A stretch of DNA of 64,000 nt, from positions 15,079,721 to 15,143,720 of the forward strand of contig NC_135571.1 in NCBI RefSeq assembly GCF_964340395.1, read 5' to 3'. The position numbers and the translations under genes are program-made. Below, piece by piece: positions 4,496-51,400 of this stretch; the first letter of the stretch is position 1; each line of letters opens with the position of its first letter. Below the pieces are notes generated by a model. It was not told where the DNA came from. It searched no databases and saw only the letters and a list, made by a program, of their open reading frames with translations. The stretch comes from Glandiceps talaboti. Lineage: Eukaryota; Hemichordata; Enteropneusta; Spengelidae.

Positions 4496-7400
4496 CTAAC
4501 CAAAATCAGAATCACAAACAATTTTGTCATTCAACAACTAGGGGAAATTAAAAATACAGTTTTAACATAAAAACAACAAACTGAATGCAAATAATAGTAC
4601 CATTGGCATTGTAGCACAACTGTACAGTATTTAAAAAACGTTCATCCACATTTTGATCCATACTAGGTATAGGTGTTCATTTGCTGAATGACTATCCAGT
4701 TGCCTATCTAACCCTGTTGTTATCTTTGTAATATACATGATTATCTGGCTGTTTCTATGGGCGTGGTCATGTTGCTAGGCATATTTGCATACACTTTTTG
4801 AATGTTTATTCACTTGTCTATGAATCCCTGATGTTATCGTGATGGATATTTGTTTTAACATATTCCAGGGGAGATGTCAAAATCTCATAACTTTGCACTG
4901 TGTCCGTACTATAAAAATCCTGGCTACACTAAGTAGCCCTTTACTAGATCATCATCAAACAAGTCTGTGACTGTGTTTATAACTTTGTTTATCAGTCATT
5001 CACATAGTATATTCTCCGAGAATCCTGAGTAATATTGTGTTCACCTTGGAATATATTTCATTCTTGGTGGTTTATGGTGAAAAACAACAGCATGACAAAA
5101 GTGGGTTTCACATCTAACCTGGTAACATGTATTAAACTTGGTGATGGTCACAGGTATCAGAGAAGTGAAACACCATAAACACAGAAAGCTATGACCATAA
5201 AAATACATTTATGGGATCAAATTTGCACTGCAGTGTACGTGTATGCGGTAATTGTTGAGTGAACTGTATGCAAATCATACAATAGAGTAAAGCCCAATTC
5301 CATGACGTTACATCATGAATAAGTAATAGAAAGGGAGATACAGCGAGCGATGACAGTCGTTCGTGCCTCTGACACTCGCTTATCAGTGCGTGGTTATAGT
5401 ATTGCTCCAGATCGGAGCGAGGCAATGACTTTTAGATAAAACGTAGCAAAAAAGGCACAAACGACTGTCGACAGTCTAAAAGACATCTAGCTGCTTTCAC
5501 CACATAAGATTTGAATCATATTGCTCTTGTCCAAACCTCTAATATTATTATCACCAAAGCATCTCATGTCCATACCTCTAAAAGTCTTTGTTTTTCTTTT
5601 TCAAGCCTACGTTGTTCTTCAAGTTCACGTTGTAAACGCCTTTCTTCTGCCTGCTGTTGAAGAAGTATTTCTTCTTGCCTAGTGGAAGCCAACAATAGTA
5701 GGACTGGTGATTACAGTACTAATTTTGAACATCTTTTGCACTTAAAACCAAACTACCAGAGATTACAGTACTAACAATGATTTACTAAGTTAAACTTCAA
5801 TGTCACACTGATAAATATGTTATCAATGACAATAATCCCTGATATTCTTACCTTCTCATTTCTGCCTCTATCCTTTCTCTTTCAGCCTGCTCCTGTGCTT
5901 GTCTTTGCAATCTTTCAGCTTCAAGACGTTCACGGATCAATCTCTCCATTGCCTCCTCTTCAGCCTATAGGATTTACAATAAGAAAACATTTCTAACTGT
6001 GGCATAAAAGTTCATAAACTGTAAAGCCTTCATACAATATGCGGTACTATGTGACAAGATACCACACACTATGTGGTACTATGTGATAAGATACCACACA
6101 CACAATATGTGGTACTATGTGACAAGATACCACACAATATGTGGTACTATGTGACAAGATACCACACACACAATATGTGGTACTATGTGACAAGATACCA
6201 CACAATATGTGGTACTATGTGACAAGATACCACACACACAATATGTGGTACTATGTGACAAGATACCACACAATATGTGGTACTATGTGACAAGATACCA
6301 CACACTATGTGGTACTATGTGACAAGATACCACACACACAATATGTGGTACTATGTGACAAGATACCACACACACAATATGTGGTACTATGTGACAAGAT
6401 ACCACACAATATGTGGATGTGGTACTATGTGACAAGATACCACACAATATGTGGTACTATGTGACAAGATACCACACGCACAATATGTGGTACTATGTGA
6501 CAAGATACCACAAAATGTGGTACTATGTGACAAGATACCACACAATGTGGTAATATGTGACAAGATACCACAAAATGTGGTACTATGTGACAAGATACCC
6601 CACAATATGTGGTACTATGTGACAAGATACCCCACAATATGTGGTACTATGTGACAAGATACCACACAATATGTGGTACTATGTGACAAGATACCACACA
6701 CACAATATGTGGTACTATGTGACAAGATACCACAAAATGTGGTACTATGTGACAAGATACCACACAATGTGGTACTATGTGACAAGATACCACAAAATGT
6801 GGTACTATGTGACACGATACCACACAATATGTGGTACTATGTGACAAGATACCACACAATATGTGGTACTATGTGACAAGATACCACACACACAATATGT
6901 GGTACTATGTGACAAGATACCACACACACAATATGTGGTACTATGTGACAAGATACCACACAATATGTTGTACTATGTGACACGATACCACACACACAAT
7001 ATGTGGTACTATGTGACACGATACCACACACACAATATGTGGTACTATGTGACAAGATACCACACAATGTGGTACTATGTGACAAGATACCACACACACA
7101 ATATGTGGTACTATGTGACAAGATACCACACAATATGTGGTACTATGTGACAAGATACCACACAATATGTGGTACTATGTGACACGATACCACACATTAT
7201 GTGGTACGATGTGACAAGATACCACACAATATGTGGTACTATGTGACAAGATACCACACACACAATATGTGGTACTATGTGACAAGATAAAACACAATAA
7301 GTGGTACTATGTGACAAGATACCACACAATATGTGGTACTATGTGACAAGATACCACACGCACAATATGTGGTACTATGTGACAAGATACTACACAATGT

Positions 7401-10400
7401 GGTACTATGTGACAAGATATCACACAATGTGGTACTATGTGACAAGATACCACACAATATGTGGTACTATGTGACAAGATACCACACACACAATATGTGG
7501 TATTATGTGACAAGATACCACACAATATGTGGTACTATGTGACAAGATACTACACACTATGTGGTACTATGTGACAAGATACCACACACTATGTGGTACT
7601 ATGTGACAAGATACCACACAATATGTGGTACTATGTGACAAGATACCACACACACAATATGTGGTATTATGTGACAAGATACCACACAATATGTGGTACT
7701 ATGTGACAAAATACCACACACACAATATGTGGTACTATGTGACAAGATACCACACAATATGTGGTACTATGTGACAAGATACCACACAATATGTGCTACT
7801 ATGTGACAAGATACCACACAATGTGGTACTATGTGACACGATACCACACACACAGTATGTGGTACTATGTGACAAGATACCACACACACACAATATGTGG
7901 TACTATGTGACAAGATACCACACACACACACACAATATGTGGTACTATGTGACAAGATACCACACAATATGTGGTACTATGTGACAAGATACCACACAAT
8001 ATGTGGTACTATGTGACAAGATACCACACACACACACAATATGTGGTACTATGTGACAAGATACCACACAATATGTGGTACTATGTGACAAGATACCACA
8101 CACTATGTGGTACTATGTGACAAGATACCACACACACAATATGTGGTACTATGTGACAAGATACCACACAATATGTGGTACTATGTGACAAGATATAAAT
8201 AACTAACCAACCTGACTAACTCTATGATATTACCCAAGGTACACCAACCTGTCTCTCTATTTCTATGATATTACCCAAGGTACACCAACCTGTCTCTCTA
8301 TTTCTATGATATTACCCAAGGTAAACCAACCTGTCTCTCTATTTCTATGATATTACCCAAGGTACACCAACCTGTCTCTCTACCTCTATGATATTACCCA
8401 AGGTACACCAACCTGTCTCTCTAACTCTATGATATTACCTAAGGTACACCAACCTGTCTCTCTATTTCTATGATATTACCCAAGGTACACCAACCTGTCT
8501 CTCTAACTCTATGATATTACCCAAGGTACACCAACCTGTCTCTCTATTTCTATGATATTACCCAAGGTACACCAACCTGTCTCTCTAACTCTATGATATT
8601 ACCTAAGGTACACCAACCTGTCTCTCTATTTCTATGATATTACCCAAGGTACACCAACCTGTCTCTCTATTTCTATGATATTACCCAAGGTACACCAACC
8701 TGTCTCTCTATTTCTATGATATTACTCAAGGTACACCAACCTGTCTCTCTATTTCTATGATATTACCCAAGGTACACCAACCTGTCTCTCTAACTCTATG
8801 ATATTACCTAAGGTACACCAACCTGTCTCTCTATTTCTATGATATTACCCAAGGTACACCAACCTGTCTCTCTAACTCTATGATATTACCCAAGGTAAAC
8901 CAACCTGTCTCTCTAACTCTATGATATTACCTAAGGTACACCAACCTGTCTCTCTATTTCTATGATATTACCCAAGGTACACCAACCTGTCTCTCTAACT
9001 CTATGATATTACCCAAGGTAAACCAACCTGTCTCTCTAACTCTATGATATTACCCAAGGTACACCAACCTGTCTCTCTATTTCTATGATATTACCTAAGG
9101 TACACCAACCTGTCTCTCTATTTCTATGATATTACCTAAGGTACACCAACCTGTCTCTCTAACTCTATGATATTACCCAAGGTAAACCAACCTGTCTCTC
9201 TAACTCTATGATATTACCTAAGGTACACCAACCTGTCTCTCTAACTCTATGATATTACCCAAGGTACACCAACCTGTCTCTCTAACTCTATGATATTACC
9301 CAAGGTAAACCAACCTGTCTCTCTAACTCTATGATATTACCTAAGGTACACCAACCTGTCTCTCTAACTCTATGATATTACCCAAGGTACACCAACCTGT
9401 CTCTCTAACTCTATGATATTACCCAAGGTAAACCAACCTGTCTCTCTAACTCTATGATATTACCCAAGGTACACCAACCTGTCTCTCTATTTCTATGATA
9501 TTACCCAAGGTACACCAACCTGTCTCTCTAACTCTATGATATTACCCAAGGTACACCAACCTGTCTCTCTAACTCTCGTATCTTTTCCTCCTCAGCTTCC
9601 ATTCTTTTCCTTTCTTCGTCTTCCTGTCTCTGTCTTTCTTCCTCTTCAAGTCTTAATTCTTCTTCCCTTTCCCATTCCTTTTCTTGTTGCAATTCTCTCA
9701 TTTTCCTTCTTTCTTCAGCAGATGCCAGCCTTTCCAACATTTCTTGTTCTCTTTTGCTGGCCTCCTCCTCCTGTGCAATGATAGATTCATAGTTGATGGC
9801 TTTAACTTTTCTTATAAAATTACACATTGGATGTTTGTACTGTATTACACATTGGATGTTTGTACTGTATTACACATTGGATGTTTGTACTGTATTACAC
9901 ATCAAATGTTTGTACTGTATTACACGCTGGATGTTTGTACTGTATTACACATTGGATGTTTGTACTGTATTACACATTGGATGTTTGTACTGTATTACAC
10001 ATCAAATGTTTGTACTTTATTACACACTGGATGTTTGTACTGTATTACACATTGGATGTTTGTACTGTATTACACACTGGATGTTTGTACTATATTACAC
10101 ATTGGATGTTTGTACTGTATTACACATTGGATGTTTGTACTGTATTACACATTGGATGTATTACACATCGGATGTTTGTTCTGTATTACACACTGGATGT
10201 TTGTACTGTATTACACACTGGATGTTTGTACTGTATTACACACTGGATGTTTGTACTGTATTACACACTGGATGTTTGTACTGTATTACACACTGGATGT
10301 TTGTACTGTATTACACACTGGATGTTTGTACTGTATTACACACTGGATGTTTGTACTGTATTCCACATCGGATGTTTGTACTGTATTACACACTGGATGT

Positions 10401-13400
10401 TTGTACTGTATTACACACTGGATGTTTGTACTGTATTACACACTGGATGTTTGTACTGTATTACACACTGGATGTTTGTACTGTATTACACACTGGATGT
10501 TTGTCCTGTATTACACACTGGATGTTTGTACTATATTACACACTGGATGTTTGTACTTTATTACACACTGGATGTTTGTACTGTATTACACATTGGATGT
10601 TTGCACTGTATTACACACTGGATGTTTGTACTATATTACACATTGGATGTTTGTACTGTATTACACATTGGATGTTTGTACTGTATTACACATTGGATGT
10701 ATTACACATCGGATGTTTGTTCTGTATTACACACTGGATGTTTGTACTGTATTACACACTGGATGTTTGTACTGTATTACACACTGGATGTTTGTACTGT
10801 ATTACACACTGGATGTTTGTACTGTATTACACACTGGATGTTTGTACTGTATTACACATTGGATGTTTGTACTGTATTACACACTGGATGTTTGTACTGT
10901 ATTACACACTGGATGTTTGTACTGTATTCCACATCGGATGTTTGTACTGTATTACACACTGGATGTTTGTACTGTATTACACACTGGATGTTTGTACTGT
11001 ATTACACACTGGATGTTTGTACTGTATTACACACTGGATGTTTGTACTGTATTACACACTGGATGTTTGTACTGTATTACACACTGGATGTTTGTACTAT
11101 ATAACACACTGGATGTTTGTACTGTATTACACATTGGATGTTTGTACTGTATTACACACTGGATGTTTGTACTGTTTTACACAATGGATGTTTGTACTGT
11201 ATTCCACATCGGATGTTTGTACTGTATTACACACTGGATGTTTGTACTGTATTACACACTGGATGTTTGTACTGTATTACACACTGGATGTTTGTACTGT
11301 ATTACACACTGGATGTTTGTACTGTATTACACACTGGATGTTTGTACTGTATTACACACTGGATGTTTGTACTGTATTACACACTGGATGTTTGTACTGT
11401 ATTACACACTGGATGTTTGTACTGTATTACACATTGGATGTTTGTACTGTATTACACACTGGATGTTTGTACTGTATTACACATTGGATGTTTGTACTGT
11501 ATTACACACTGGATGTTTGTCCTGTATTACACACTGGATGTTTGTACTGTATTACACATTGGATGTTTGTACTGTATTACACACTGGATGTTTGTACTGT
11601 ATTCCACATCGGATGTTTGTACTGTGTTTATTACACACTGGATGTTTGTACTGTATTCCACATCGGATGTTTGTACTGTATTACACATTGGATGTTTGTA
11701 CTGTATTCCACATTGGATGTTTGTACTGTATTACACATTGGATGTTTGTACTGTATTACACATTGGATTTTTGTACTGTATTACACATCGGATGTTTGTA
11801 CTGTATTACACACTGGATGTTTGTACTGTATTCCACATCGGATGTTTGTACTGTATTTATTACACACTGGATGTTTGTACTGTACTCCACATCGGATGTT
11901 TGTACTGTATTACACATTGGATGTTTGTACTGTATTCCACATTGGATGTTTGTACTGTATTACACATTGGATGTTTGTACTGTATTTATTACACACTGGA
12001 TGTTTGTACTGTATTACACATTGGATGTTTGTAATGTATTACACATCGGATGTTTGTACTGTATTACACATCAAATGTTTGTACTGTATTACACATTGGA
12101 TGTTTGTACTGTATTCCACATCGGATGTTTGTACTGTATTACACATCGGATCTTTGTTCTGTATTACACATTGGATGTTTGTTCTGTATTACACATTGGA
12201 TGTTTGTACTGTATTACACATTGGATGTTTGTTTTGTATTCCACATCGGATGTTTGTACTGTATTACACACTGGATGTTTGTACTGTATTACATACTGGA
12301 TGTTTGTACTGTATTACACATTGGATGTTTGTTCTGTATTACACATTGGATGTTTGTACTGTATTACACATTGGATGTTTGTTCTGTATTCCACATCGGA
12401 TGTTTGTACTGTATTACACACTGGATGTTTGTACTGTATTATACACTGGATGTTTGTACTGTATTACACATCGGCTGTTTGTACTGTATTCCACATCGGA
12501 TGTTTGTACTGTATTACACACTGGATGTTTGTACTATATTATACACTGGATGTTTGTACTGTATTACACACTGGATGTTTGTACTGTATTACACACTGGA
12601 TGTTTGTACTGTATTACACACTGGATGTTTGTACTGTATTACACACTGGATGTTTGTACTGTATTATACACTGGATGTTTGTACTGTATTCCACATCGGT
12701 TGTTTGTACTGTATTACACACTGGATGTTTGTACTGTATTATACACTGGATGTTTGTACTGTATTACACATCGGCTGTTTGTACTGTATTCCACATTGGA
12801 TGTTTGTACTGTATTACACATTGGATGTTTGTACTGTATTACACATTGGATGTTTGTACTGTATTACACACTGGATGTTTGTACTGTATTATACACTGGA
12901 TGTTTGTACTGTATTCCACATCGGTTGTTTGTACTGTATTACACACTGGATGTTTGTACTGTATTATACACTGGATGTTTGTACTGTATTACACATCGGC
13001 TGTTTGTACTGTATTCCACATTGGATGTTTGTACTGTATTACACATTGGATGTTTGTACTGTATTACACATTGGATGTTTGTACTGTATTACACACTGGA
13101 TGTTTGTACTGTATTATACACTGGATGTTTGTACTGTATTACACACTGGATGTTTGTACTGTATTATACACTGGATGTTTGTACTGTATTCCACATCGGA
13201 TGTTTGTACTGTATTCCACATCGGATGTTTGTACTGTATTACACATAGGATGTTTGTACTGTATTACACACTGGATGTTTGTACTGTATTACACATTGGA
13301 TGTTTGTACTGTATTACACACTGGATGTTTGTACTGTATTCCACATCGGATGTTTGTACTGTATTTATCACACACTGGATGTTTGTACTGTATTCCACAT

Positions 13401-16400
13401 CGGATGTTTGTACTGTATTACACATTGGATGTTTGTACTGTATTCCACATTGGATGTTTGTACTGTATTACACATTGGATGTTTGTACTGTATTACTCAT
13501 TGGATGTTTGTACTGTATTACACATTGGATGTTTGTACTGTATTACACACCAAATGTTTGTACTGTATTACACATTGGATGTTTGTACTGTATTCCACAT
13601 CGGATGTTTGTACTGTATTACACATCGGATTTTTGTTCTGTATTACACATTGGATGTTTGTTCTGTATTCCACATTGGATGTTTGTACTGTATTACACAT
13701 TGGATGTTTGTTCTGTATTCCACATCGGATGTTTGTACTGTATTATACACTGGATGTTTGTACTATATTACACATTGGATGTTTGTACTGTATTACACAT
13801 TGGATGTTTGTACTGTATTACACATCGGATGTTTGTTCTGTATTACACATCAAATGTTTGTACTGTATTACACATCAAATGTTTGTACTGTATTACACAT
13901 TGGATGTTTGTACTGTATTACACATCGGATGTTTGTACTGTATTCCACATCGGATGTTTGTACTGTATTACACATTGGATGTTTGTACTGTATTACACAT
14001 TGGATGTTTGTACTGTATTACACACTGGATGTTTGTTCTGTATTCCACATCGGATGTTTGTACTGTATTACACACTGGATGTTTGTACTATATTATACAT
14101 TGGATGTTTGTACTGTATTACACATTGGATGTTTGTACTGTATTACACATCGGATGTTTGTACTGTATTACACATCAAATGTTTGTACTGTATTACACAT
14201 TGGATGTTTGTACTGTATTCCACATCGGATGTTTGTACTGTATTACACACTGGATGTTTGTACTATATTACACATTGGATGTTTGTACTGTATTACACAT
14301 TGGATGTTTGTACTGTATTACACACTGGATGTTTGTACTATATTACACACTGGATGTTTGTACTGTATTACACATTGGGTGTTTGTACTGTATTACACAC
14401 TGGATGTTTGTACTATATTACACATTGGATGTTTGTACTATATTACACATTGGATGTTTGTACTGTATTACACATCAAATGTTTGTACTGTATTACACGC
14501 TGGATGTTTGTACTGTATTACACATTGGATGTTTGTACTGTATTACACATTGGATGTTTGTACTGTATTACACATCAAATGTTTGTACTTTATTACACAC
14601 TGGATGTTTGTACTGTATTACACATTGGATGTTTGTACTGTATTACACACTGGATGTTTGTACTATATTACACATTGGATGTTTGTACTGTATTACACAT
14701 TGGATGTTTGTACTGTATTACACATTGGATGTATTACACATCGGATGTTTGTTCTGTATTACACACTGGATGTTTGTACTGTATTACACACTGGATGTTT
14801 GTACTGTATTACACACTGGATGTTTGTACTGTATTACACACTGGATGTTTGTACTGTATTACACACTGGATGTTTGTACTGTATTACACACTGGATGTTT
14901 GTACTGTATTACACACTGGATGTTTGTACTGTATTCCACATCGGATGTTTGTACTGTATTACACACTGGATGTTTGTACTGTATTACACACTGGATGTTT
15001 GTACTGTATTACACACTGGATGTTTGTACTGTATTACACACTGGATGTTTGTACTGTATTACACACTGGATGTTTGTCCTGTATTACACACTGGATGTTT
15101 GTACTATATTACACACTGGATGTTTGTACTTTATTACACACTGGATGTTTGTACTGTATTACACATTGGATGTTTGCACTGTATTACACACTGGATGTTT
15201 GTACTATATTACACATTGGATGTTTGTACTGTATTACACATTGGATGTTTGTACTGTATTACACATTGGATGTATTACACATCGGATGTTTGTTCTGTAT
15301 TACACACTGGATGTTTGTACTGTATTACACACTGGATGTTTGTACTGTATTACACACTGGATGTTTGTACTGTATTACACACTGGATGTTTGTACTGTAT
15401 TACACACTGGATGTTTGTACTGTATTACACATTGGATGTTTGTACTGTATTACACACTGGATGTTTGTACTGTATTACACACTGGATGTTTGTACTGTAT
15501 TCCACATCGGATGTTTGTACTGTATTACACACTGGATGTTTGTACTGTATTACACACTGGATGTTTGTACTGTATTACACACTGGATGTTTGTACTGTAT
15601 TACACACTGGATGTTTGTACTGTATTACACACTGGATGTTTGTACTGTATTACACACTGGATGTTTGTACTATATAACACACTGGATGTTTGTACTGTAT
15701 TACACATTGGATGTTTGTACTGTATTACACACTGGATGTTTGTACTGTTTTACACAATGGATGTTTGTACTGTATTCCACATCGGATGTTTGTACTGTAT
15801 TACACACTGGATGTTTGTACTGTATTACACACTGGATGTTTGTACTGTATTACACACTGGATGTTTGTACTGTATTACACACTGGATGTTTGTACTGTAT
15901 TACACACTGGATGTTTGTACTGTATTACACACTGGATGTTTGTACTGTATTACACACTGGATGTTTGTACTGTATTACACACTGGATGTTTGTACTGTAT
16001 TACACATTGGATGTTTGTACTGTATTACACACTGGATGTTTGTACTGTATTACACATTGGATGTTTGTACTGTATTACACACTGGATGTTTGTCCTGTAT
16101 TACACACTGGATGTTTGTACTGTATTACACATTGGATGTTTGTACTGTATTACACACTGGATGTTTGTACTGTATTCCACATCGGATGTTTGTACTGTGT
16201 TTATTACACACTGGATGTTTGTACTGTATTCCACATCGGATGTTTGTACTGTATTACACATTGGATGTTTGTACTGTATTCCACATTGGATGTTTGTACT
16301 GTATTACACATTGGATGTTTGTACTGTATTACACATTGGATTTTTGTACTGTATTACACATCGGATGTTTGTACTGTATTACACACTGGATGTTTGTACT

Positions 16401-19400
16401 GTATTCCACATCGGATGTTTGTACTGTATTTATTACACACTGGATGTTTGTACTGTACTCCACATCGGATGTTTGTACTGTATTACACATTGGATGTTTG
16501 TACTGTATTCCACATTGGATGTTTGTACTGTATTACACATTGGATGTTTGTACTGTATTTATTACACACTGGATGTTTGTACTGTATTACACATTGGATG
16601 TTTGTAATGTATTACACATCGGATGTTTGTACTGTATTACACATCAAATGTTTGTACTGTATTACACATTGGATGTTTGTACTGTATTCCACATCGGATG
16701 TTTGTACTGTATTACACATCGGATCTTTGTTCTGTATTACACATTGGATGTTTGTTCTGTATTACACATTGGATGTTTGTACTGTATTACACATTGGATG
16801 TTTGTTTTGTATTCCACATCGGATGTTTGTACTGTATTACACACTGGATGTTTGTACTGTATTACATACTGGATGTTTGTACTGTATTACACATTGGATG
16901 TTTGTTCTGTATTACACATTGGATGTTTGTACTGTATTACACATTGGATGTTTGTTCTGTATTCCACATCGGATGTTTGTACTGTATTACACACTGGATG
17001 TTTGTACTGTATTATACACTGGATGTTTGTACTGTATTACACATCGGCTGTTTGTACTGTATTCCACATCGGATGTTTGTACTGTATTACACACTGGATG
17101 TTTGTACTATATTATACACTGGATGTTTGTACTGTATTACACACTGGATGTTTGTACTGTATTACACACTGGATGTTTGTACTGTATTACACACTGGATG
17201 TTTGTACTGTATTACACACTGGATGTTTGTACTGTATTATACACTGGATGTTTGTACTGTATTCCACATCGGTTGTTTGTACTGTATTACACACTGGATG
17301 TTTGTACTGTATTATACACTGGATGTTTGTACTGTATTACACATCGGCTGTTTGTACTGTATTCCACATTGGATGTTTGTACTGTATTACACATTGGATG
17401 TTTGTACTGTATTACACATTGGATGTTTGTACTGTATTACACACTGGATGTTTGTACTGTATTATACACTGGATGTTTGTACTGTATTCCACATCGGTTG
17501 TTTGTACTGTATTACACACTGGATGTTTGTACTGTATTATACACTGGATGTTTGTACTGTATTACACATCGGCTGTTTGTACTGTATTCCACATTGGATG
17601 TTTGTACTGTATTACACATTGGATGTTTGTACTGTATTACACATTGGATGTTTGTACTGTATTACACACTGGATGTTTGTACTGTATTATACACTGGATG
17701 TTTGTACTGTATTACACACTGGATGTTTGTACTGTATTATACACTGGATGTTTGTACTGTATTCCACATCGGATGTTTGTACTGTATTCCACATCGGATG
17801 TTTGTACTGTATTACACATAGGATGTTTGTACTGTATTACACACTGGATGTTTGTACTGTATTACACATTGGATGTTTGTACTGTATTACACACTGGATG
17901 TTTGTACTGTATTCCACATCGGATGTTTGTACTGTATTTATCACACACTGGATGTTTGTACTGTATTCCACATCGGATGTTTGTACTGTATTACACATTG
18001 GATGTTTGTACTGTATTCCACATTGGATGTTTGTACTGTATTACACATTGGATGTTTGTACTGTATTACTCATTGGATGTTTGTACTGTATTACACATTG
18101 GATGTTTGTACTGTATTACACACCAAATGTTTGTACTGTATTACACATTGGATGTTTGTACTGTATTCCACATCGGATGTTTGTACTGTATTACACATCG
18201 GATTTTTGTTCTGTATTACACATTGGATGTTTGTTCTGTATTCCACATTGGATGTTTGTACTGTATTACACATTGGATGTTTGTTCTGTATTCCACATCG
18301 GATGTTTGTACTGTATTATACACTGGATGTTTGTACTATATTACACATTGGATGTTTGTACTGTATTACACATTGGATGTTTGTACTGTATTACACATCG
18401 GATGTTTGTTCTGTATTACACATCAAATGTTTGTACTGTATTACACATCAAATGTTTGTACTGTATTACACATTGGATGTTTGTACTGTATTACACATCG
18501 GATGTTTGTACTGTATTCCACATCGGATGTTTGTACTGTATTACACATTGGATGTTTGTACTGTATTACACATTGGATGTTTGTACTGTATTACACACTG
18601 GATGTTTGTTCTGTATTCCACATCGGATGTTTGTACTGTATTACACACTGGATGTTTGTACTATATTATACATTGGATGTTTGTACTGTATTACACATTG
18701 GATGTTTGTACTGTATTACACATCGGATGTTTGTACTGTATTACACATCAAATGTTTGTACTGTATTACACATTGGATGTTTGTACTGTATTCCACATCG
18801 GATGTTTGTACTGTATTACACACTGGATGTTTGTACTATATTACACATTGGATGTTTGTACTGTATTACACATTGGATGTTTGTACTGTATTACACACTG
18901 GATGTTTGTACTATATTACACACTGGATGTTTGTACTGTATTACACATTGGGTGTTTGTACTGTATTACACACTGGATGTTTGTACTATATTACACATTG
19001 GATGTTTGTACTATATTACACATTGGATGTTTGTACTGTATTACACACTGGATGTTTGTACTATATTACACACTGGATGTTTGTACTGTATTACACATTG
19101 GGTGTTTGTACTGTATTACACATTGGATGTTTGTACTGTATTCCACATCGGATGTTTGTACTATATTACACATTGGATGTTTGTACTATATTTATTTTTT
19201 TATGCACGATTCATTACCTTTTCTTAACATGCACATTTTTTTTTGCATTTCCTGTCTTTTATTGACAACTAAATGTGTGTAAGTGTAATACTCAATTTGA
19301 TTTTAGGTATAAATAGTGATCAATCACTAATATATACATGATATATATGTATGGTTACCTTGGCAACATATACCATGGCAATGGTTTAAATCATAACGAG

Positions 19401-22400
19401 AGGTATTTACCATGGCAACAGTTTACATCATAGTGAGGGGTATTTACCATGGCAACAGTTTACATCATAGTGAGGGGTATTTACCATGGCAACAGTTTAC
19501 ATCATAATGAGAGGTATTTACCATGGCAACAGTTTACATCATAATGAGAGGTATTTACCATGGCAACAGTTTACATCATAATGAGAGGTATTTACCATGG
19601 CAACAGTTTACATCATAGTGAGGGGTATTTACCATGGCAACAGTTTACAGCATAGTGAGGGGTATTTACCATGGCAACAGTTTACATCATAATGAGAGGT
19701 ATTTACCATGTAACACTTACCATTCTCCTTCTTTCTTCTCTTTGTTGTTCTCTTTCTTGACGTCTTCGTTCTAATTCTGCCTTTCTCTTAGATTCTCGTT
19801 CTTCTTTAGCTTTCTTCCGTGCTGCCACTAACATTAGCCTAGCCTCTTCCTCTGCTTCTTGAGCATCCTGTGCTCTTTCAGCAGCATCCTGTGCAGCTTC
19901 TTCAGCAAGCTGGTCAGTAAAAGATAATCAGATTGTTGTTATCAAATTACCATGGTAAATACATCTTTTCTAAAATCTTCAAACTTTGTTCCAACAAATC
20001 TATACTTTGTCAACTCAATAGTCAACAGTGACAAAATGCAGAAATAAAGGAACAATGACACACTGTCATGTGAGGAACAATGACACAATGTCATGTAAGG
20101 GACAATGACACAATGTCATGTAAGGAACAATGACACAATGTCATGTAAGGGACAATGACACAATGTCATGTAAGGGACAATGACAGTGTCATGTATAGAA
20201 CAATGACACAGTGTCATGTAAGGAACAATGACACAATGTCATGTATAGAACAATGACACAGTGTCATGTAAGGAACAATGACACAATGTCATATAAAGAA
20301 CAATGACACAATGTCATGTAAGGAACAATGACACAATGTCATGTAAGGGACAATGACAGTGTCATGTATAGAACAATGACACAATGTCATGTAAGGGACA
20401 ATGACAGTGTCATGTATAGAACAATGACACAGTGTCATGTAAGGAACAATGACACAATGTCATGTAAAGAACAATGACACAATGTCATGTAAGGGACAAT
20501 GACAGTGTCATGTATAGAACAATGACACAATGTCATGTGAGGAACAATGACACAATGTCATGTAAAGAACAATGACACAATGTCATGTAAGGGACAATGA
20601 CACAATGTCATGTAAGGGACAATGACAGTGTCATGTATAGAACAATGACACAGTGTCATGTAAGGAACAATGACACAATGTCATGTAAAGAACAATGACA
20701 CAATGTCATGTAAAGAACAATGACACAATGTCATGTAAGGGACAATGACACAATGTCATGTAAGGGACAATGACACAATGTCATGTAAGGGACAATGACA
20801 CAATGTCATGTAAGGAACAATGACACAATGTCATGTAAAGAACAATGACACAATGTCATGTAAAGAACAATGACACAATGTCATGTAAGGGACAATGACA
20901 CAGTGTCATGTAAGGGACAATGACACAATGTCATGTAACTGTAAGGGACAATGACACAATGTCATGTAAGGAACAATGACACAATGTCATGTAAAGAACA
21001 ATGACACAATGTCATGTAAGGGACAATGACACAATGTCATGTAAAGAACAATGACACAATGTCATGTAAAGAACAATGACACAATGTCATGTAAGGGACA
21101 ATGACACAATGTCATGTATAGAACAATGACACAGTGTCATGTAAGGAACAATGACACAATGTCATGTAAAGAACAATGACACAATGTCATGTAAGGGACA
21201 ATGACACAATGTCATGTAAGGGACAATGACACAGTGTCATGTAAGGAACAATGACACAATGTCATGTAAAGAACAATGACACAATGTCATGTAAGGGACA
21301 ATGACACAGTGTCATGTAAGGGACAATGACACAATGTCATGTAAAGAACAATGACACAATGTCATGTAAGGGACAATGACACAATGTCATGTAAGGAACA
21401 ATGACACAATGTCATGTAAAGAACAATGACACAATGTCATGTAAGGGACAATGACACAATGTCATGTAAAGAACAATGACACAATGTCATGTAAGGGACA
21501 ATGACACAATGTCATGTAAAGAACAATGACACAATGTCATGTAAGGAACAATGACACAATGTCATGTAAGGGACAATGACACAATGTCATGTAAGGGACA
21601 ATGACACAATGTCATGTAAGGGACAATGACACAATGTCATGTAAGGGACAGTGACACAATGTCATGTAAGGGACAATGACACAATGTCATGTAAGGGACA
21701 ATGACACAATGTCATGTAAGGGACAATGACACAGTGTCATGTAAGGGACAATGACACAATGTCATGTAAAGAACAATGACACAATGTCATGTAAAGAACA
21801 ATGACACAATGTCATGTAAAGAACAATGACACAATGTCATGTAAGGGACAATGACACAATGTCATATAAGGGACAATGACACAATGTCATGTATAGAACA
21901 ATGACACAATGTCATATAAAGAACAATGACACAATGTCATGTAAAGAACAATGACACAGTGTCATGTAAAGAACAATGACACAGTGTCATGTAAGGGACA
22001 ATGACACAGTGTCATGTAAGGGACAATGACACAATGTCATGTAAGGAACAACCACCAATGCCCCAATGCCTTAACTGAAATGTGTGAATGACAACATCTA
22101 AACACTCATCAAACTCAGAATTACCATAAACTGATGAGACATAGTAATTAGTAGTTTGTTATCATCATGTGATATTGGACATTAGTATATGTACGCATTA
22201 TAGAGGTTGTGGGTTATGAATATATTAACATATAATTATATATTTGCAACCCAAGGCCATACGTCCTCTCAATGGAATGTGAAGTCTGAAAATGACATTA
22301 GTGAGACGTTCAGGCAAGCCCTCACTGCGAACTTCATTCACACAGTGAACTTTGTTCGTTTATCGTATTGGAAGAAAGCCGGACCGTCTATGAGTCTAGC

Positions 22401-39400: not shown

Positions 39401-42400
39401 TGGCCATGCTGAGCCTTCATCTTCTATTGCCCCATCAACAGTTGGTTCAGTTGTGTCCTCTACTGGAATGGCTTCTGAACCAGGAATAATTACACCTTTG
39501 GGATGGAAATAATAGTATATAAACTATACTAAATATAAATGATACCATACATCAGTGTACAAACTATACCATACATCACAGTACAAACTATACCATACAT
39601 CACAGTACAAACTATACCATTCATTACAGTACAAACTATACCATACATTACAGTACAAACTATACCATACATCACAGTACAAACTATACCATACATCACA
39701 GTACAAACTATACCATACATCACAGTACAAACTATACCATACATCACAGTACAAACTATACCATACATCACAGTACAAACTATACCATACATCACAGTAC
39801 AAACTATACCATACATCACAGTACAAACTATACCATACATCACAGTACAAACTATACCATACATCAATGTACAAACTATACCATACATCAGTGTACAAAC
39901 TATACCATACATCAATGTACAAACTATACCATACATCACAGTACAAACTATACCATACATCACAGTACAAACTATACCATACATCACAGTACAAACTATA
40001 CCATACATCAGTGTACAAACTATACCATACATCAATGTACAAACTATACCATACATCACAGTACAAACTATACCATACATCAATGTACAAACTATACCAT
40101 ACATCACAGTACAAACTATACCATACATCACAGTACAAACTATACCATACATCACAGTACAAACTATACCATACATCACAGTACAAACTATACCATACAT
40201 CAATGTACAAACTATACCATACATCACAGTACAAACTATACCATACATCACAGTACAAACTATACCATACATCAGTGTATAAACTATACCATACATCACA
40301 GTACAAACTATACCATACATCAATGTACAAACTATACCATACATCAGTGTACAAACTATACCATACATCACAGTACAAACTATACCATACATCAGTGTAC
40401 AAACTATACCATACATCAGTGTACAAACTATACCATACATCAGTGTACAAACTATACCATACATCACAGTACAAACTATACCATACATCAGTGTATAAAC
40501 TATACCATACATCACAGTACAAACTATACCATACATCAGTGTACAAACTATATCATACATCCCAGTACAAACTATACCATACATCAATGTACAAACTATA
40601 CCATACATCAGTGTATAAACTATACCATACATCACAGTACAAACTATACCATACATCACAGTACAAACTATATCATACATCACAGTACAAACTATACCAT
40701 ACATCAGTGTATAAACTATACCATACATCACAGTACAAACTATATCATACATCCCAGTACAAACTATACCATACATCACAGTACAAACTATACCATACAT
40801 CAGTGTACAAACTATACCATACATCAGTGTATAAACTATACCATACATCACAGTACAAACTATACCATACATCACAGTACAAACTTTACCATACATTACA
40901 GTACAAACTATACCATACATCACAGTACAAACTATACCATACATCAGTGTATAAACTATACCATACATCACAGTACAAACTATACCATACATCACAGTAC
41001 AAACTTTACCATACATCACAGTACAAACTATACCATACATCACAGTACAAACTTTACGATATAAAACCACATAAAAACCATCAAACCATACCTTGATAAG
41101 GAGCTTGTAATGGGTGTGTTGCTATCATTGTTTCGCCAAGGTCCTCTGTTTTTATCTCACTTCTTGCACTTCCTGGTCGACTGTCAGTAATAGATCTGCT
41201 TTTCAAATGTCCTATCCCACTATCAACTTTACTAATACCCACTGAATGAGCTGCCACACTACCAGGTCTGTCATCACCTATGGACTGAGCTACCATACTA
41301 CCAGGTCTGTCATCACCTATGGACTGAGCTGCCATACTACCAGGTCTGTCATCACCTATGGACTGAGCTGCCGTACTACCGGGTCTGTCATCACCTATGG
41401 ACTGAGCTGCCATACTACCAGGTCTGTCATCACCTATAGACTGAGCTGCCACACTACCAGGTCTGTCATCACCTATGGACTGAGCTGCCATACTACCAGG
41501 TCTGTCATCACCTATGGACTGAGCTGCCATACTACCAGGTCTGTCATCACCTATGGACTGAGCTGCCATACTACCAGGTCTGTCATCACCTATGGACTGA
41601 GCTGTTGCACTTGTAACTCTGCTCTCACGACCAGTCTTACTGGTTCTGGAGGGCACCCTTTCACTTCCAGCTACAGAGGGTTTTCTTGAAGACATACGAG
41701 TAGCAGAGTGAGTTCTGTCACTTACAGGAGTTGTAGTCTTTCTATCATTGTCATTTATCATCAAATCTTCCTCAGACATTGCCTTATGCAGTTGTTCTTC
41801 ATCTACTTGACCACCAATCCATAAATCATCCTCTTCCTCTCTTTGTGATACCATGGATACAGATACAGGTCTGCTGCATTTATCATCTTCTGTAATGGAA
41901 ACAAAAATAGCACTAATGATGTTGTAGCACAACTGTATTTGTCTGTTGCTATGGGTGTGGTCTTGTTGCTATTGATATTTGCATACATTTTTTGGATTCT
42001 TTATCAACTTGCCTACCCTTCATCTTTGCAATATAAACCATTATTTAGCTGTTGATATGGGCATTGTCCTGCTGTTAAGCATATTTGCAAAAATTATTTG
42101 AATCTGTATTCTCTTACCTACCCATCCCTGTTGTTATCTTTGTAATATGCATCACCATTTCACTGTTGCTAAGGGCATGGTTGTTAGGGCAAATTGTGTT
42201 GAAACATTTCCAACAATAACTGCTGAATAATACCTCCAGAAATATCCCCACCAAGTTTCAACCTCATTCACTATTCAGTTTAAAGTTATCACTTTTTTTC
42301 TTTTTTTTTACCAAAATTGAGATTGTTTTTTACCTAATTTACATATTGCTGATGGGATCATCATGTTGTACATACAGCTTCATCTACACATCCCAAGATG

Positions 42401-45400
42401 CATCCCCATTAAATTTGAACCCAATCTGCTCAGTAGTTTGGGAACTATATATTTTTGACAAAAAAGGCACATTTGTATCCCTAATTTGCATATCACTGAT
42501 GAGATCATCCTGTCATGAACAATTCTACTAAACAATCTTGATCAAAAAGACACATTTGTATCCCTAATTTGCATATCACTGATGAGGATCACCATGTTAT
42601 GTACAATTCTTTCTCGAAACACCCTGAAGAATATTCAAACCAAATTTCAGCCAAATCTGCTCAATTCTTTTGAAATTAAAGATGTGTGAACAAAATTATC
42701 GGTATTAACTTTATATACTGTGTCCTAACTTACAAAGTCCATAAATAAAATTATCAGTATTAACTTACTGTATCCTAACTTACAAAGTCCATAAATAAAA
42801 TTATCAGTATTAACTTACTGTATCCTAACTTACAAAGTCCATAAATAAAATTATTAGTATTAACTTACTTATTTAGTTTGAACATTGCCATGTCAATTTA
42901 GCAGGCAAATGTTACTCATTAGTAGTTTGAACATTGCCATGGTAATTTAACAATAACTATTTATTGCATGTTTTACTGACCCACTGTCACACATACTGTA
43001 AATACACTCAAGTATCAAGAGTTTTTTACCTTGACCTTTGACCTCTGATTCCCCACTTGGTATAGACCACATTTGTCCAGTGACTCCTATTCCTCCATAA
43101 CCACCATCTTTATCATTTATATCAGCAATCTGTTCATCCCCTTTACTTTCTGAATGTAATGATTTGTCAACCTCTGTCACAGTGTAACATTCTTGTCCTA
43201 TTGCATTTTTATCATAACCTGTCAGTGATTCATCTATGGGAGGAAAATAATAAATTAATAACTTAGGTAAATGAATATGTATAATAAAAATATGAAATTC
43301 TGATAATGATAATGATAAATGGAAATCTGAACATAAACTGCAATGTGTGTGTATGAGATTTGGGTATCTAGTTTGAGAATATCATTTGTCAGTATTTTGA
43401 ACCAGATAGCCACATAACCAATAACAATGCATGTATCATGTGGCATATATCAATACCACATAGCAAATGAAACTAAATGTATTGTATGTGTGTGTGACAA
43501 TACATCCTAGCCAATGACATTGGATGTACTGTATGTGTGATCAATACATCCTAGCTAATGACATTGGATGTACTGTATGTGTGATCAATACATCATAGCC
43601 AATGACATTGGATGTACTGTATGTGTGATCAATACATCATAGCCAATGACATTGGATGTACTGTATGTGTGATCAATACATCCTAGCTAATGACATTGGA
43701 TGTACTGTATGTGTGATCAATACATCCTAGCTAATGACATTGGATGTACTGTATGTGTGATCAATACATCATAGCCAATGACATTGGATGTACTGTATGT
43801 GTGATCAATACATCATAGCCAATGACATTGGATGTACTGTATGTGTGATCAATACATCCTAGCCAATGACATTGGATGTACTGTATGTGTGATCAATACA
43901 TCCTATCTAATGACATTGGATGTACTGTATGTGTGATCAATACATCATAGCTAATGACATTGGATGTACTGTATGTGTGATCAATACATCCTAGCCAATG
44001 ACATTGGATGTACTGTATGTGTGATCAATACATCCTAGCCAATGACATTGGATGTACTGTATGTGTGATCAATACATCATAGCTAATGACATTATATACT
44101 TACCTCTTACTGGACCAGATTGATTGTCATCCTCCCCAACCTCTGACCTTTGACGTCCAGCTGACCCCATGGAGGCAGGTGACCTCCTTGAACTTGATGA
44201 TATGTCATCAGCTGTTTGAGGTCGTGTTGGTGGGATTGATGAAGGCAAGGGTACATCTACCATGTCACTATGGTTATCTTCTTTTCTCCATGGAGAGATT
44301 GTCATTGGTAGATACTGGGCACCACCAGGTCTCCCTAAGTAATTGGTAGATTTCAATGAGGCAGCTAGTTTCATTGCTGATAACACAGATCTGGATAGAA
44401 AAGAATTGAATCAAAAACTGGATAAACGTTTTAAACTAGCGGTGATAGTTGTATAGAGGGGTTTAACAGTACTGTATAATCATGTAGTTTTTATGTATAT
44501 ACCTAAGGGAGTAGACTTTTTATCAGTTACTGTATAAAGAGGTTTATCTACTAAATAAACACTTACTGTAACAATTTCAGTTAGTCTTCAGTACCATGGG
44601 TCACTTTGTGACAGAAATGATGGCTTTATTCACTACCCAAGGATGACCATCACTACTATGGGTCACTTTGTCAACAGAAATGATGGCTTTATTCACTACC
44701 CAAGGATGACCATCTCTTGTGATTAATCAGTATTTTAATCATATTCAATAATATATGACAACATCTGTTATCACCAATGATTCCTATATTCAGTTCCTCT
44801 GATATCCACTTGAACACTATGTTACATACATAATGTACTCACTTGAACACTACATGTATGTTGCATGATGTACTCACTTCAACACTATGTTACATACATA
44901 ATGTACTCACTTGAACACTATGTTACATACATAATGTACTCACTTGAACACTGTTACATATATAATGTACTCACTTGAACACTATGTTACATACATAATG
45001 TACTCACTTGAACACTATGTTACATACATAATGTACTCACTTGAACACTACATGTATGTTACATGATGTACTCACTTGAACACTATGTTACATACATAAT
45101 GTACTCACTTGAACACTATGTTACATACATAATGTACTCACTTGAACACTATGTTACATACATGTACATAATGTACTCACTCGAACACTGTAACATACAT
45201 AATGTATCCACTGTTGAGTAAAATATGACCCTCCCTCAACTCCAATGTGCCAGTAGTAGTAACTTTAGTGGCCCTCCCCAAATGTCTTTCTCTAAAACAT
45301 GACCCTACCCCTGTTCAAAAACATGGGTTATGTCCCACTTCTACCACCATGTTGAAGTGTGTGAAGGCACTGCATTAATAAATACTTCTGTTTTGATCTT

Positions 45401-48400
45401 GTTGGCTAAACTGAAGGCCACAATTTAAATCTCAATGATTAGATTGACACGCTCCTGACATCGTCAATGGGAATGAGGTCAATATCTCCACAACATTATC
45501 CCTTGTATCTTACCCAACTACTTCTTTTTTTTACAACTGTGAGACCCACTCATCTCCTCACACCACAACTGACTAATATTGATTCATTATTTGGTTGTCA
45601 GCAGCAATTTGATATACATATAGGCTGATACCTAACCCTAACCCTAACCTGAATGGCAGCAATGGGATTTGGAACCTGTAACAGCGATGAGATGAAAACC
45701 CCTCAAAATAATGCAATGTTAGGCAATACAATGAGTGACAGTAAAATGTGACCCTCCCCAAGAGCCAACTTGCAAAAAATCACACCCCCACCCCACCCAA
45801 CCCCACTAGCAAATACCAAAGGCTCCCTATTTACTTACTTTGCTGATGAAGGTTTTCGTTTTCTATCTGATTGCATTGATTGTCTTGGTGATGGCTGTGA
45901 ATAGGACTCAGTCAATTGACTGACATCCGCACTAATGCGGTAACCATGGCTGCCGGCATCACCTGCATCCATCTTACGTAATTCCTCCTGAAGTTCTGCT
46001 CTTTCCAAATCTGAAGTGACAGATCTTCCTGATGACGGTCTGAATCCCATTCCTGATCTGTGGGGTGCAAGAAAATGATAAAAAGAAAATCAAACGAGAA
46101 ATAGACTGAATTAGTTAAATAACTGCAAAACATAAACCAAAAAGTAAACTGAAAGAGTTTTAATAGAAAATACTGAGTATTGAATTGTCCAACACTGACT
46201 TGGATCACCTAAATAGAATAACTGTATTAATTTACTAGGTCCTGACTTGTAAATAGAATTAACTGTATTAATTTACTAGGTCCTGACTTTTAATCACCTA
46301 AATAGAATTAACTGTATTAATTTACTAGGTCCTGACTTGTAAATAGAATTAACTGTATTGATTTACTAGGTCCTAACATATAAATAAAATATTGTTAAAA
46401 TAAAAATAAAAGTCCAAGTCTGGTTAAAATGTCTGCTTTATTTGAATCCCAACGTTTCAACTGTGCACAGACAGTCTTTTTCAAAAAAAGTATGAAGCAA
46501 AGAATAAGAATACAGACCAGATTTAAACTGAATGCCTCCCGTAAGGGAATCACTAATTATGCAAATAACTCATTAAACTAAAAAAAAATATGGTAGAAGA
46601 GTGCAGGATACTGCTTAATTACTGAATATTGTTCATTATTCAAAATACTTATTAAAGGTAAAAGCTGTAACAACAAACTTCACAGGACAGGTGCGCATTA
46701 TTATGGTTGATATATGTACCATATTATACGAAATTTGAAGCTTGCATTTTTAAGATACAGCCGAGTTACCTAAAATCATTAATTATGCAAATATTTCATG
46801 AAAACTGTAAGCTATATCAACAAATTTTATAGGACATATCCACTTTGTTATGGTTAACATATGTACTAAATGATATTGAAATTCAAGTATGCATTCTTAT
46901 GACAATCATTAATCATGCAAATTAGTTATTAACACTGTAAGATACATCGACAACTGTATAGGGCATATATAGTTTGTTATGTTTAATGTATGAAGTAAAT
47001 TATATTGAAATTGAAGCATGCATATAGCCTAATTACCGAAAATAATTAATTATGCAAATTATTCACTAAATCTTTAAGAGAAATCAACAACTTTTATAGG
47101 AGATATGCACTCTGTTATGTTTAACTTATGTACTATAAAATTGTATTGAAATTGAAGTATGCAGTCTTAAGATATAGCCTAATTACTGAAACTCATTAAT
47201 TATGCAAATTATTCATCAACACTGTAAGGTACATCAACTAACTTTATAGGACATACACAATTTGTTATGGTTAATGTATGTTAAAATTGTATTGAATTGA
47301 AGTATGCAGTTGTAAGATATAGCCTAATTACTGAAAATCATTAATTATGCAAATTATTCACTAACACTGAAGTGAAAGGTACATCAACAAGCTTTACAGG
47401 ACATATGTGATTGTTATGGTTAACGTGTGTACTGAATTTTATTGGAAATGAAGTATGTACTCTTAAGATATAGCCTAATTACCGAAAATCATTAATTATG
47501 CAAATTATTTATTAACACTGTAAAGTACATCAACAAACTTGATAGGACATATGTGTTTTCTTATGGTTAACGTACGTACTAGTACTAGTTGATTTAATTA
47601 ATATGCAAATTTCTCTAATTAAACATTAACAGATCTGGCTCAAAACCTAATCAGGTGTAACTATTACCCTAAAGATTATATATTCCAAATTTCATTACAA
47701 TTGAGCCAGCCGATTTTCAGAAAATGATGACACAGACACACACAGACAAACAGACGGACAGAAAGACAGACAGATGGACAGACGGACACACAGACAGACA
47801 TTTCCCTTTTAATACCTCCCGTACCCTTACGGATAAAGATGAACAAAAAACTACAATGAATCCAATAAACCTATGTAAAAATAAAGCATAAAAACTGAAA
47901 TAGTATTAAAGGCCGCCTCCCATATATAAACGCGAAGGCCCTTTGTGGTCATTTTGGTAAACAATAGGGAAGTGGTAACAACCTAGCGACAGCTCCTGCT
48001 AAACTGCAGTTTTGCATGTGTTCCGACCATTGACACATACTGTACTGTGACCAAGTCATTATGAATATATGACATATGTAATCACCGCATTCATTTTCAA
48101 TAAGAATGGAAATCTGAGGTACATTTCTCGACATTACTTTCGGTCAGACATCAGAAAAGCTACGCCGACTTTGCAGTTGATAACGCTACGGAACTGTCAA
48201 TCAACATGAAGTACACACACACGAACAAATCCTAATGATGCTTACATTATCTACAAAAACTAAATTTGTCATTGACGTCAATTCTAGCCATCTTCTTTGC
48301 TTGAAACCAAGTTATGAGCCCTTCGAGTACAGATATTCTGTGTGTCTTGCACAACGACCAATCCTAATCAGAATGGGCGAAAAACGCCTCGACCATGTTA

Positions 48401-51400
48401 CAACGTTGTAGCATCATTTCACATCCATTTCTATACACAACCACCCTTGGTGTACGTGTACGCGATCCATTGCTATGAAGTGTTTGTTGATAGATAGAAC
48501 TTAGACCTGTCAGTGTCTCATGTCTGTAGCCTCATTGACTATCATACAATTTCAAAGATATCCATGGCCAATAAAGTAGGAAGTGTGCTGTATGTCGAAA
48601 GAAGAACAATTGCCCTATGATTAACCATTTATGAGCATTGTTCTAATTTACAACACAATATTTGTAAAATACAAACTACTAAAGTACCTCGAAGTATATA
48701 AACTACAAGTTTATATTCTCTCGAATTTGTATCATACAGTAATTGTTAGTATCGCATTTCTTTTGAAAATGGTTTCAATTCTGAATACAACAACAAGATT
48801 CGCACTGTTTGAATATGTAACAATAAAATGTTCACAGTATAGCAAAAACTTCAACTAAGTAAAGGAGCCTGAAGTTCAGTATTGGGTATTTTTACTCGTG
48901 ATCGCCTGTATTGATCTTTCTCCAACTGTAAAATTTGACAAATCAGATGATCATGAAATGCTAAATTGTTGTCTGACGTACTTCAATTTATTAGGGTCAC
49001 CCTATTTTTTTTTCTGTTTTTCATTATCCGGGCGACCCACTGAATACAAAGTTTCAACCCTCCGACATCAACAACAAAAATCACATAAAAAGAAAACATC
49101 AAGGAGGAAAAGAGAACAGTAGCAATTACTTGATGATGAATTTTTCAATCGACCGACTGACCCATATTTGTAATGGTACAGTAATGAGAAACAGAAAAAA
49201 TAGGGCCAATTTTAGGCACATGGAGTTGCTGTTAGGAGGGACATATGACACAACAAACTGTCATATCATATAGCATTGTGATAAAGAGTAAAAATTGACT
49301 CCGCAATCGGAATCTGAAATAATGGTGTGCAATAGCTTTACATGTAGTTATATAGACTCCGTAATCTGAGGAGGCACTAGTTGAAGACGTGTCGGATCGG
49401 AGCACGATCTCTGTGCCGTGGTAAATATGAAGGCACTTTTTGTGAAGTTTAAATATTTCTGTTTTTGTTTCAGGTAGAACGTCTACCGTTTGCATATTTG
49501 AATAGTATCTACGTCTCACTATCACACATTTTATATGTGAATTTTATTTCTTTATAATATGCTAGCTGAAGTGGAGGGAAGGTAAATAAGGATGTCCAAA
49601 ACATCTATTGCTTGAGTGGCTTGTCGGTCAGAGTTGGTACAATAGGCACTATCTCGCTACCGCTCAAACAGCTGCTAAACAAGACAATGGTATAACATTG
49701 CAATGATTCGATAGAACGTCATTTTGCTCCTCAGACCGTAATCTTAGTTATGGAGTTCGGAATATAACCCATCTGCGTTACATTTTCATGGTGTTGGTGA
49801 GAGTCAAAACCATTCCATTGAATTCATGAAAGTGTCACTAAAAATAGACGTTGCATGCTGTCCACAGCGTCCCTTTCAGGCCACTGACGCTAACCTAGTT
49901 GCCTCCACAACCGGTAACCTAGCTATGGCCATGAACACTCCCAATCTTGTGCAGTGGAAAATTGAAAATAATGATACTGCTTCACCTTGTTTTTGGTATA
50001 TTTTGACAGTAAAACTTGAAATTGATATGTATATGATAGGCATTCGATTTACTGATAGTAGATAAGGTGATGTTTATGGGGCGGAGTAGCCACTAATGCG
50101 AGAACCTGGGATTAAAAGCCGGGGCTTTAAAGAGACCATAAATAAAATTATCAGTATTAACTTACTGTATCCTAACTTACAAAGTCCATAAATAAAATCA
50201 TCAGTATTAACTTGTCTTACTGTATCCTAACTTACAAAGTCCATAAATAAAATCATCAGTATTAATTTACTGTATCCTAACTTACAAAGTCCATAAATAA
50301 AATTATTAGTATTAACTTACTGTATCCTAACTTACAAGGTCCATAAATAAAATTATTAGTATTAACTTACTGTGTCCTAACTTACAAAGTCCATAAATAA
50401 AATCATCAGTATTAACTTACTGTGTCCTAACTTACAAAGTCCATAAATAAAATTATCAGTATTAACTTACTGTGTCCTAACTTACAAAGTCCATAAATAA
50501 AATTATTAGTATTAACTTACTGTGTCCTAACTTACAAGGTCCATAAATAAAATCATCAGTATTAACTTACTGTGTCCTAACTTACAAAGTCCATAAATAA
50601 AATTATTAGTATTAACTTACTGTGTCCTAACTTACAAAGTCCATAAATAAAATTATTAGTATTAACTTACTGTGTCCTAACTTACAAGGTCCATAAATAA
50701 AATCATCAGTATTAACTTACTGTATCCTAACTCACAAAGTCCATAAATAAAATTATTAGTATTAACTTACTGTGTCCTAACTTACAAGGTCCATAAATAA
50801 AATCATCAGTATTAACTTACTGTATCCTAACTCACAAAGTCCATAAATAAAATTATTAGTATTAACTTACTGTATCCTAACTTACAAAGTCCATAAATAA
50901 AATCATCAGTATTAACTTACTGTATCCTAACTTACAAAGTCCATAAATAAAATTATTAGTATTAACTTACTGTATCCTAACTTACAAAGTCCATAAATAA
51001 AATCATCAGTATTAACTTACTGTGTCCTAACTTGTAAATCTCGTAAATAGAATGAATAATCTCCACCAGGCTGTGCATGTATATCCATTGCTGTTTCGTC
51101 ATCCACATCTCGGAGAAATTTAGTGAAAGTTTTGTCATAGTGTGTGGAGTAACTTTCAAAGTCATTCTCTGGACCCTATTAGAAAATAAAAAAAATAATT
51201 GTAGATGATAATAATGACAGAAGCAGTGACTGAGTGATTGTTAGAAGCAGTGACTCAGTGATTGTTAGTTAATGTACAAAGGTACTATTGTCTACTGTAC
51301 ACAATGTGTAGATTTGTTTAGAGTAATCATGAATATCCTTGTTTTAGATTCTTTCAAGTACCTTTATCGTCGAGAATTTATTAAGGAGCTCCTTCCGGGA

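Follow-up and report, generated by a model that had tools for sequence, protein, structure and literature searches.

Mirages are repeats of a type that is known but has seldom been described; they reportedly owe their name to Canestro et al. 2002, and a human minisatellite that gives several splice donors, in IFI6, is said to have been described by Turri et al. 1995. The mirages of amphioxus are tandem repeats that span exon-intron borders in the Adh3 and globin genes, many of them with AG/GT signals and variable in length, and leave regular splicing undisturbed (PMC3087553). Those of the globin genes lie in BflGb6 and BflGb9, and haplotypes with 6 and 3 units are given for BflGb6. A further mirage is found in TnC, and similar repeats in PGBD5 (PMC3902484). 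In human IFI6 (6-16), the minisatellite supplies several donors, and two downstream units are really used, giving three mRNAs (PMC4526556). Also related are the Rogers model, in which introns are gained when AG/GT segments are duplicated in tandem (discussed in PMC3087553), and the tandem repeats found at exon-intron borders in duplicated human genes (PMC2812944). Among the matches listed in the open-access literature, there was no report of mirages in hemichordates. Here, we describe a 41-base-pair (bp) minisatellite at exon 15 of LOC144452642, the gene covering a 64,000-base stretch of DNA from the acorn worm Glandiceps talaboti (Spengelidae, Hemichordata). This whole stretch is referred to as the window, and all positions are positions in it.

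Judged by its sequence, the Glandiceps array most likely belongs to the known mirage kind. As in amphioxus, the repeated unit spans an exon border and carries a splice signal, both at exon 15 and at exon 3 of the gene, and its length of 41 bp lies within the range of 10-72 bp given for Adh3 units. The differences concern the host, which is a hemichordate and not a cephalochordate; the number of units, with 33 and about 18 in Glandiceps versus 6 in one BflGb6 haplotype and 3 in the other; the borders involved, which are donor borders alone in the Glandiceps gene and both borders in amphioxus; and the occurrence of one unit type, that of the exon 3 border, also in another intron, unlike in amphioxus. 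The likeness to IFI6 consists in a minisatellite at the donor of an exon which puts repeated donors on offer. However, later donors are used in IFI6, whereas those tried in Glandiceps all run into a stop codon within intronic unit 1. The Rogers model and the human border repeats share with our locus the tandem duplication of a segment carrying a splice signal but, unlike in the intron gain of that model, the Glandiceps array lies within intron 15 save for its first 16 bases, and no new intron is formed.

Results

Coding exon 15 (9561..9770, minus strand, as are all exons and arrays of the gene for which a range is given in this form; phase 0 at both ends; purine content 82%) has the acceptor TTGCACAG before GAG and the donor CAG/GTTGGT (9555..9563), where the slash marks the splice border. 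The 41-bp minisatellite (8216..9576) starts inside the exon, at base 9576, and continues into intron 15 without a break. At 8216-9576, Tandem Repeats Finder (TRF) gave 33.2 copies of the 41-bp unit, with 95% matches and without insertions or deletions. Read in register from 9576, the array consists of 33 full units, which end at about 8216-8224, and a degenerate partial last unit with a 3-base gap, which retains CAG/GTTGGT and, together with a short joint to the next array, occupies 8196..8223. The consensus unit, AGAGTTAGAGAGACAG followed by GTTGGTGTACCTTGGGTAATATCAT, is made of 16 exon-end bases and then 25 intronic bases in which the donor lies; the last 16 bases of exon 15 (9561..9576), with which the first unit starts, are identical to the first 16 consensus bases, and each of the 33 units holds these 16 exon-derived bases plus the identical donor. 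The word CAGGTTGGT is found at 34 places on the minus strand and at none on the plus strand of the whole window, i.e. as the true donor and 33 decoys, and a 22-base junction word, with three or fewer mismatches allowed, gave 33 matches versus a maximum of 0 in 100 shuffles. The end of exon 15 scored 28 against its own array after removal of the self-match; no other exon end exceeded 10, and none of 200 shuffles exceeded 16. The initial annotation had read this region as a minisatellite built from the end and donor of the exon, with about 33 decoys identical to the true donor and with the first unit as exon-intron border. This description agrees with our counts and with the register of the array, and the exon end it saw in each unit is indeed shared, with a length of 16 bases instead of the 15 stated.

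Across the 33 full units of the one haplotype available, five columns are variable, and the resulting eight unit types are intermixed. The nine donor bases are invariant in these units; because the variable columns are so few, this is expected by chance, the probability of finding none of the five among the donor bases being 0.27. Neither higher-order repeats (lag 3, p 0.054; lag 7, p 0.051) nor a gradient of the AA variant along the array (p 0.08) reached significance.

The numbering of the exon follows from a gene model on the minus strand with 18 coding exons and consistent phases, which equals the NCBI protein P0001 (1437 residues, labelled isoform X2) letter for letter and places 9770-9561 as coding exon 15, as had been proposed. 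With the inner exon borders fixed, this exact match was the single solution among the exon 1 ends and exon 2 starts tried. In protein searches, in which just the candidates with the most shared words were scored (7983 in the 1110-residue search), residues 1-1110 of the model retrieved P0001 of the same species at 100% identity over the whole query, and the C-terminal 70 residues retrieved P0001 itself and an Asterias protein; a provisional C-terminal fragment gave no match. The product is a coiled-coil protein, for which searches of Pfam and of solved structures gave no match.

Joined at unit 1, exon 15 and exon 16 (5852..5964; AEEEAMERL..., acceptor CCTATAG/GCT in the model matching P0001) keep the frame and read RELERQ/AEEEAM, as in P0001. 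Donors 2, 3, 4, 10 and 33 all gave a protein running into RELERQVGVPWVIS and a stop inside the first intronic unit, so that these later donors add the eight residues VGVPWVIS and then terminate at least 230 bases before the last junction. Among the donors tried, the first alone preserves the protein. The true exon 15 donor ranks 15th in strength among the 16 donors scored (exons 2 to 17) by a weight matrix of human frequencies; it is weak and has the same sequence as the decoys, so that the choice cannot rest on strength. A choice based on RNA structure was rejected as well: predicted folding does not separate unit 1 from the other units, with a predicted probability of an unpaired donor of 0.012 in unit 1 versus 0.004-0.035 in units 2-33. 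A stretch of four units folds slightly better than shuffles (z -1.55), with 11 of 200 shuffles equally good. Thus the weak donor, the stop in the first unit and the breakage of the protein by later donors, all noted in the initial annotation, were found again, and its expectation that the first copy is picked fits P0001 and the homologues reaching the site. The first copy is most likely the spliced donor, and the simplest explanation for its choice would be its position together with the purine-rich exon in front of it.

The motif [LM]E[RK][QE]AEEEA runs uninterrupted across the exon 15-16 junction, and hence over the true 5' splice site of intron 15, in 11/11 homologues reaching it (P0004-P0014). 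These include two starfish and eight mollusc models, phyla which we take from the species names; two Ptychodera flava models stop short of the junction motif and stand outside this count. The BLAST alignment with the Asterias protein is ungapped at the junction. Since the exon-end motif is common to starfish and molluscs, it was not made by an array in Glandiceps, and the array was most probably copied from the border of exon 15. A second case in the same gene, at exon 3, supports the exon as source of the array.

Coding exon 3 (51021..51175 in the model matching P0001; donor ACA/GTAAGT) is the second mirage parent. The 50-bp minisatellite found there by TRF (50136..51033) starts in the last 13 bases of the exon, spans the donor and comprises about 18 units. 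Deeper into the exon, the likeness is weak: the last 28 bases match the consensus at 21 positions and the nearest units at 22. The protein end of exon 3, YLRDLQVRTQ, is identical in P. flava. The initial annotation had described the exon 15 array alone; that array is real, and the one at exon 3 is a second of its kind in the gene. Units of the exon 3 border are also present in intron 6 (42716..42869; 3.1 copies of the 50-bp unit), and a diverged short array like the exon 3 border lies at the far end of intron 3 (46204..46390).

In order to compare donors and acceptors across the gene, exon ends were scored against arrays, with arrays longer than 1500 bases cut to 1500 and a p floor of 0.005. 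Three of the 28 donor-array pairs beat every other exon end and all 200 shuffles, namely exon 15 with its own array and exon 3 with two arrays; in the same scoring, none of the 28 acceptor-array pairs stood out. The gap table covered introns 2 to 17 of the 17 in the coding region and was based on hand-picked TRF arrays with overlapping rows merged. Among the 13 array-bearing introns in it, an array lies over the donor or at most 42 bases from it in six, and at such a distance from the acceptor in none, the nearest acceptor-array gaps being 43, 46, 48 and 52 bases. The acceptor spacing is likely due to the approximately 40 bases that the pyrimidine tract and the branch point take up, while a donor would need no more than its first copy. 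In the arrays that start near the donors of exons 5, 7, 9 and 14, no sequence is clearly derived from an exon; exon 7 reaches a shuffle p of 0.040, yet another exon end scores higher on the same array. Two of them, at 19371-19710 (exon 14) and 43483-44093 (exon 5), start 10 bases past the donor.

Tandem repeats make up about 62% of the window (39,562 of the 64,000 bases, counted from TRF rows merged by hand). Intron 15 has 3596 bases, of which 89 lie outside arrays; besides the 41-bp array, it is filled by a 32-bp array (6034..8195) that is unrelated to the former, self-complementary and accounts for most of the remaining intron. A 164-base stretch of the 32-bp array (7900-8063) folds at -69.5 kcal/mol (z -5.6). 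Since the array is self-complementary and its predicted fold strong, much of intron 15 could form long hairpins. In intron 14, a 25-bp array of 375 copies (9819-19192) contains a block that recurs at a spacing of 4573 bp, with 4607 consecutive bases identical, which reflects either a duplication of very recent date or an artefact of the assembly; because of this exact 4.6-kb repeat in the neighbouring array, the copy numbers in the assembly may be inexact. Coding exon 7 holds a coding repeat of 39 bp or 13 residues (SIGDDRPGSMAAQ; about nine copies at 41247-41604), which was not seen in the P. flava proteins P0002 and P0003.

Discussion

We put at roughly 0.85 the probability that the exon 15 array is a mirage minisatellite which was born by a duplication across the exon border and then amplified, and of which the first copy is spliced. 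The starting segment, 41 bp that reach across the exon 15 end and its 5' splice site, would have been duplicated in tandem, and slippage or unequal exchange would then have expanded it to 33 copies in the intron. Because they lie downstream of the real donor, the extra copies would be spliced out and tolerated. The spliceosome would pair the exon 15 acceptor with the nearest downstream donor, i.e. the first copy, and this choice could be made by exon definition, the exon being a purine-rich one of 210 nucleotides before a 3.6-kb intron.

The initial annotation had also raised the possibility of a regulated loss of function, in which later donors would sometimes be chosen and the addition of VGVPWVIS and a stop would lead to decay of the mRNA or to a protein without the conserved C-terminus. 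The early stop shared by the later donors tried, well upstream of the last junction, and a true donor that is weak and not stronger than the decoys would suit such a poison-donor array. However, no positive evidence for it was obtained: the decoy donors are conserved no better than chance (p 0.27), folding is alike across the units, no isoform of this kind was met with in material that comprised no transcripts, and unselected duplication could well yield both the 41-bp length and the stop, and we therefore regard regulation of this kind as unlikely. Still less probable is recursive splicing, the other suggestion made there, in which each CAG/GTTGGT would be a ratchet point for stepwise removal of the intron. 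CAG/GT is the core of a ratchet site and is present in every unit, but a recursive splice site has a pyrimidine tract before AG/GT, and only 7/20 positions before the AG of CAG/GT are pyrimidines, compared to 12-16/20 at the 16 native acceptors scored; on this ground, recursive splicing was rejected. The unit's second AG, within CATAG, is preceded by 11/20 pyrimidines, just below the native minimum.

A reversed order of events, with the array first and the exon border sliding into it, would make the exon end repeat-derived. Exon and array share 16 identical bases, and for this reason their sequence alone gives no direction of copying. It is the exon-end motif in all of the homologues reaching the site, from starfish and molluscs, and the identity of the exon 3 end in P. 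flava that speak against this order and make it very improbable. We give equally little credit to the idea that the decoys are a bank of sites for the U1 small nuclear ribonucleoprotein, acting against premature polyadenylation or for exon definition, and that the copies were selectively kept. Intronic U1 sites have a known general role, and 34 identical donor words would make a large bank; yet these sites are weak by the human matrix and, apart from the exon 3 arrays, no donor-derived bank was found among the tested arrays of the gene.

Several points weigh against a mirage with first-copy splicing as the explanation. It is the protein model and the homologues, not RNA, that speak for the use of the first copy, and P0001 is isoform X2, grouped by NCBI in a cluster with another sequence. 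The low complexity of the coiled-coil motif makes it a weaker alignment marker, and the homologues were compared at the level of protein motif, not of intron position. At exon 3, firm sharing with the exon amounts to 13 bases. As to the difference between donors and acceptors, the 43-base cut was set post hoc (Fisher p 0.015), and when all gaps are ranked, the two sides do not differ significantly (Mann-Whitney p 0.37).

More tentatively, the 5' splice sites of Glandiceps may be a recurrent birthplace of intronic minisatellites, from which units would then be re-seeded into other introns, as with the exon 3 unit in introns 3 and 6, so that intronic repeats would read out the preferred donor copy. 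Donor-spanning duplications would be neutral because the first copy is spliced, acceptor-spanning ones would not, and donors would thus keep seeding arrays. We regard this generalisation as possible, though doubtful at present.

A mirage origin of the exon 15 and exon 3 arrays would bring to a hemichordate a phenomenon described in amphioxus, here with a pair of arrays in the same gene and with many more units than in the amphioxus globin cases cited. The identical donors every 41 bp would constitute a natural test of the choice among equal 5' splice sites, in which strength is the same throughout, leaving only position and exon context to differ. In addition, the asymmetry between donors and acceptors may be turned into a simple prediction for the whole genome.
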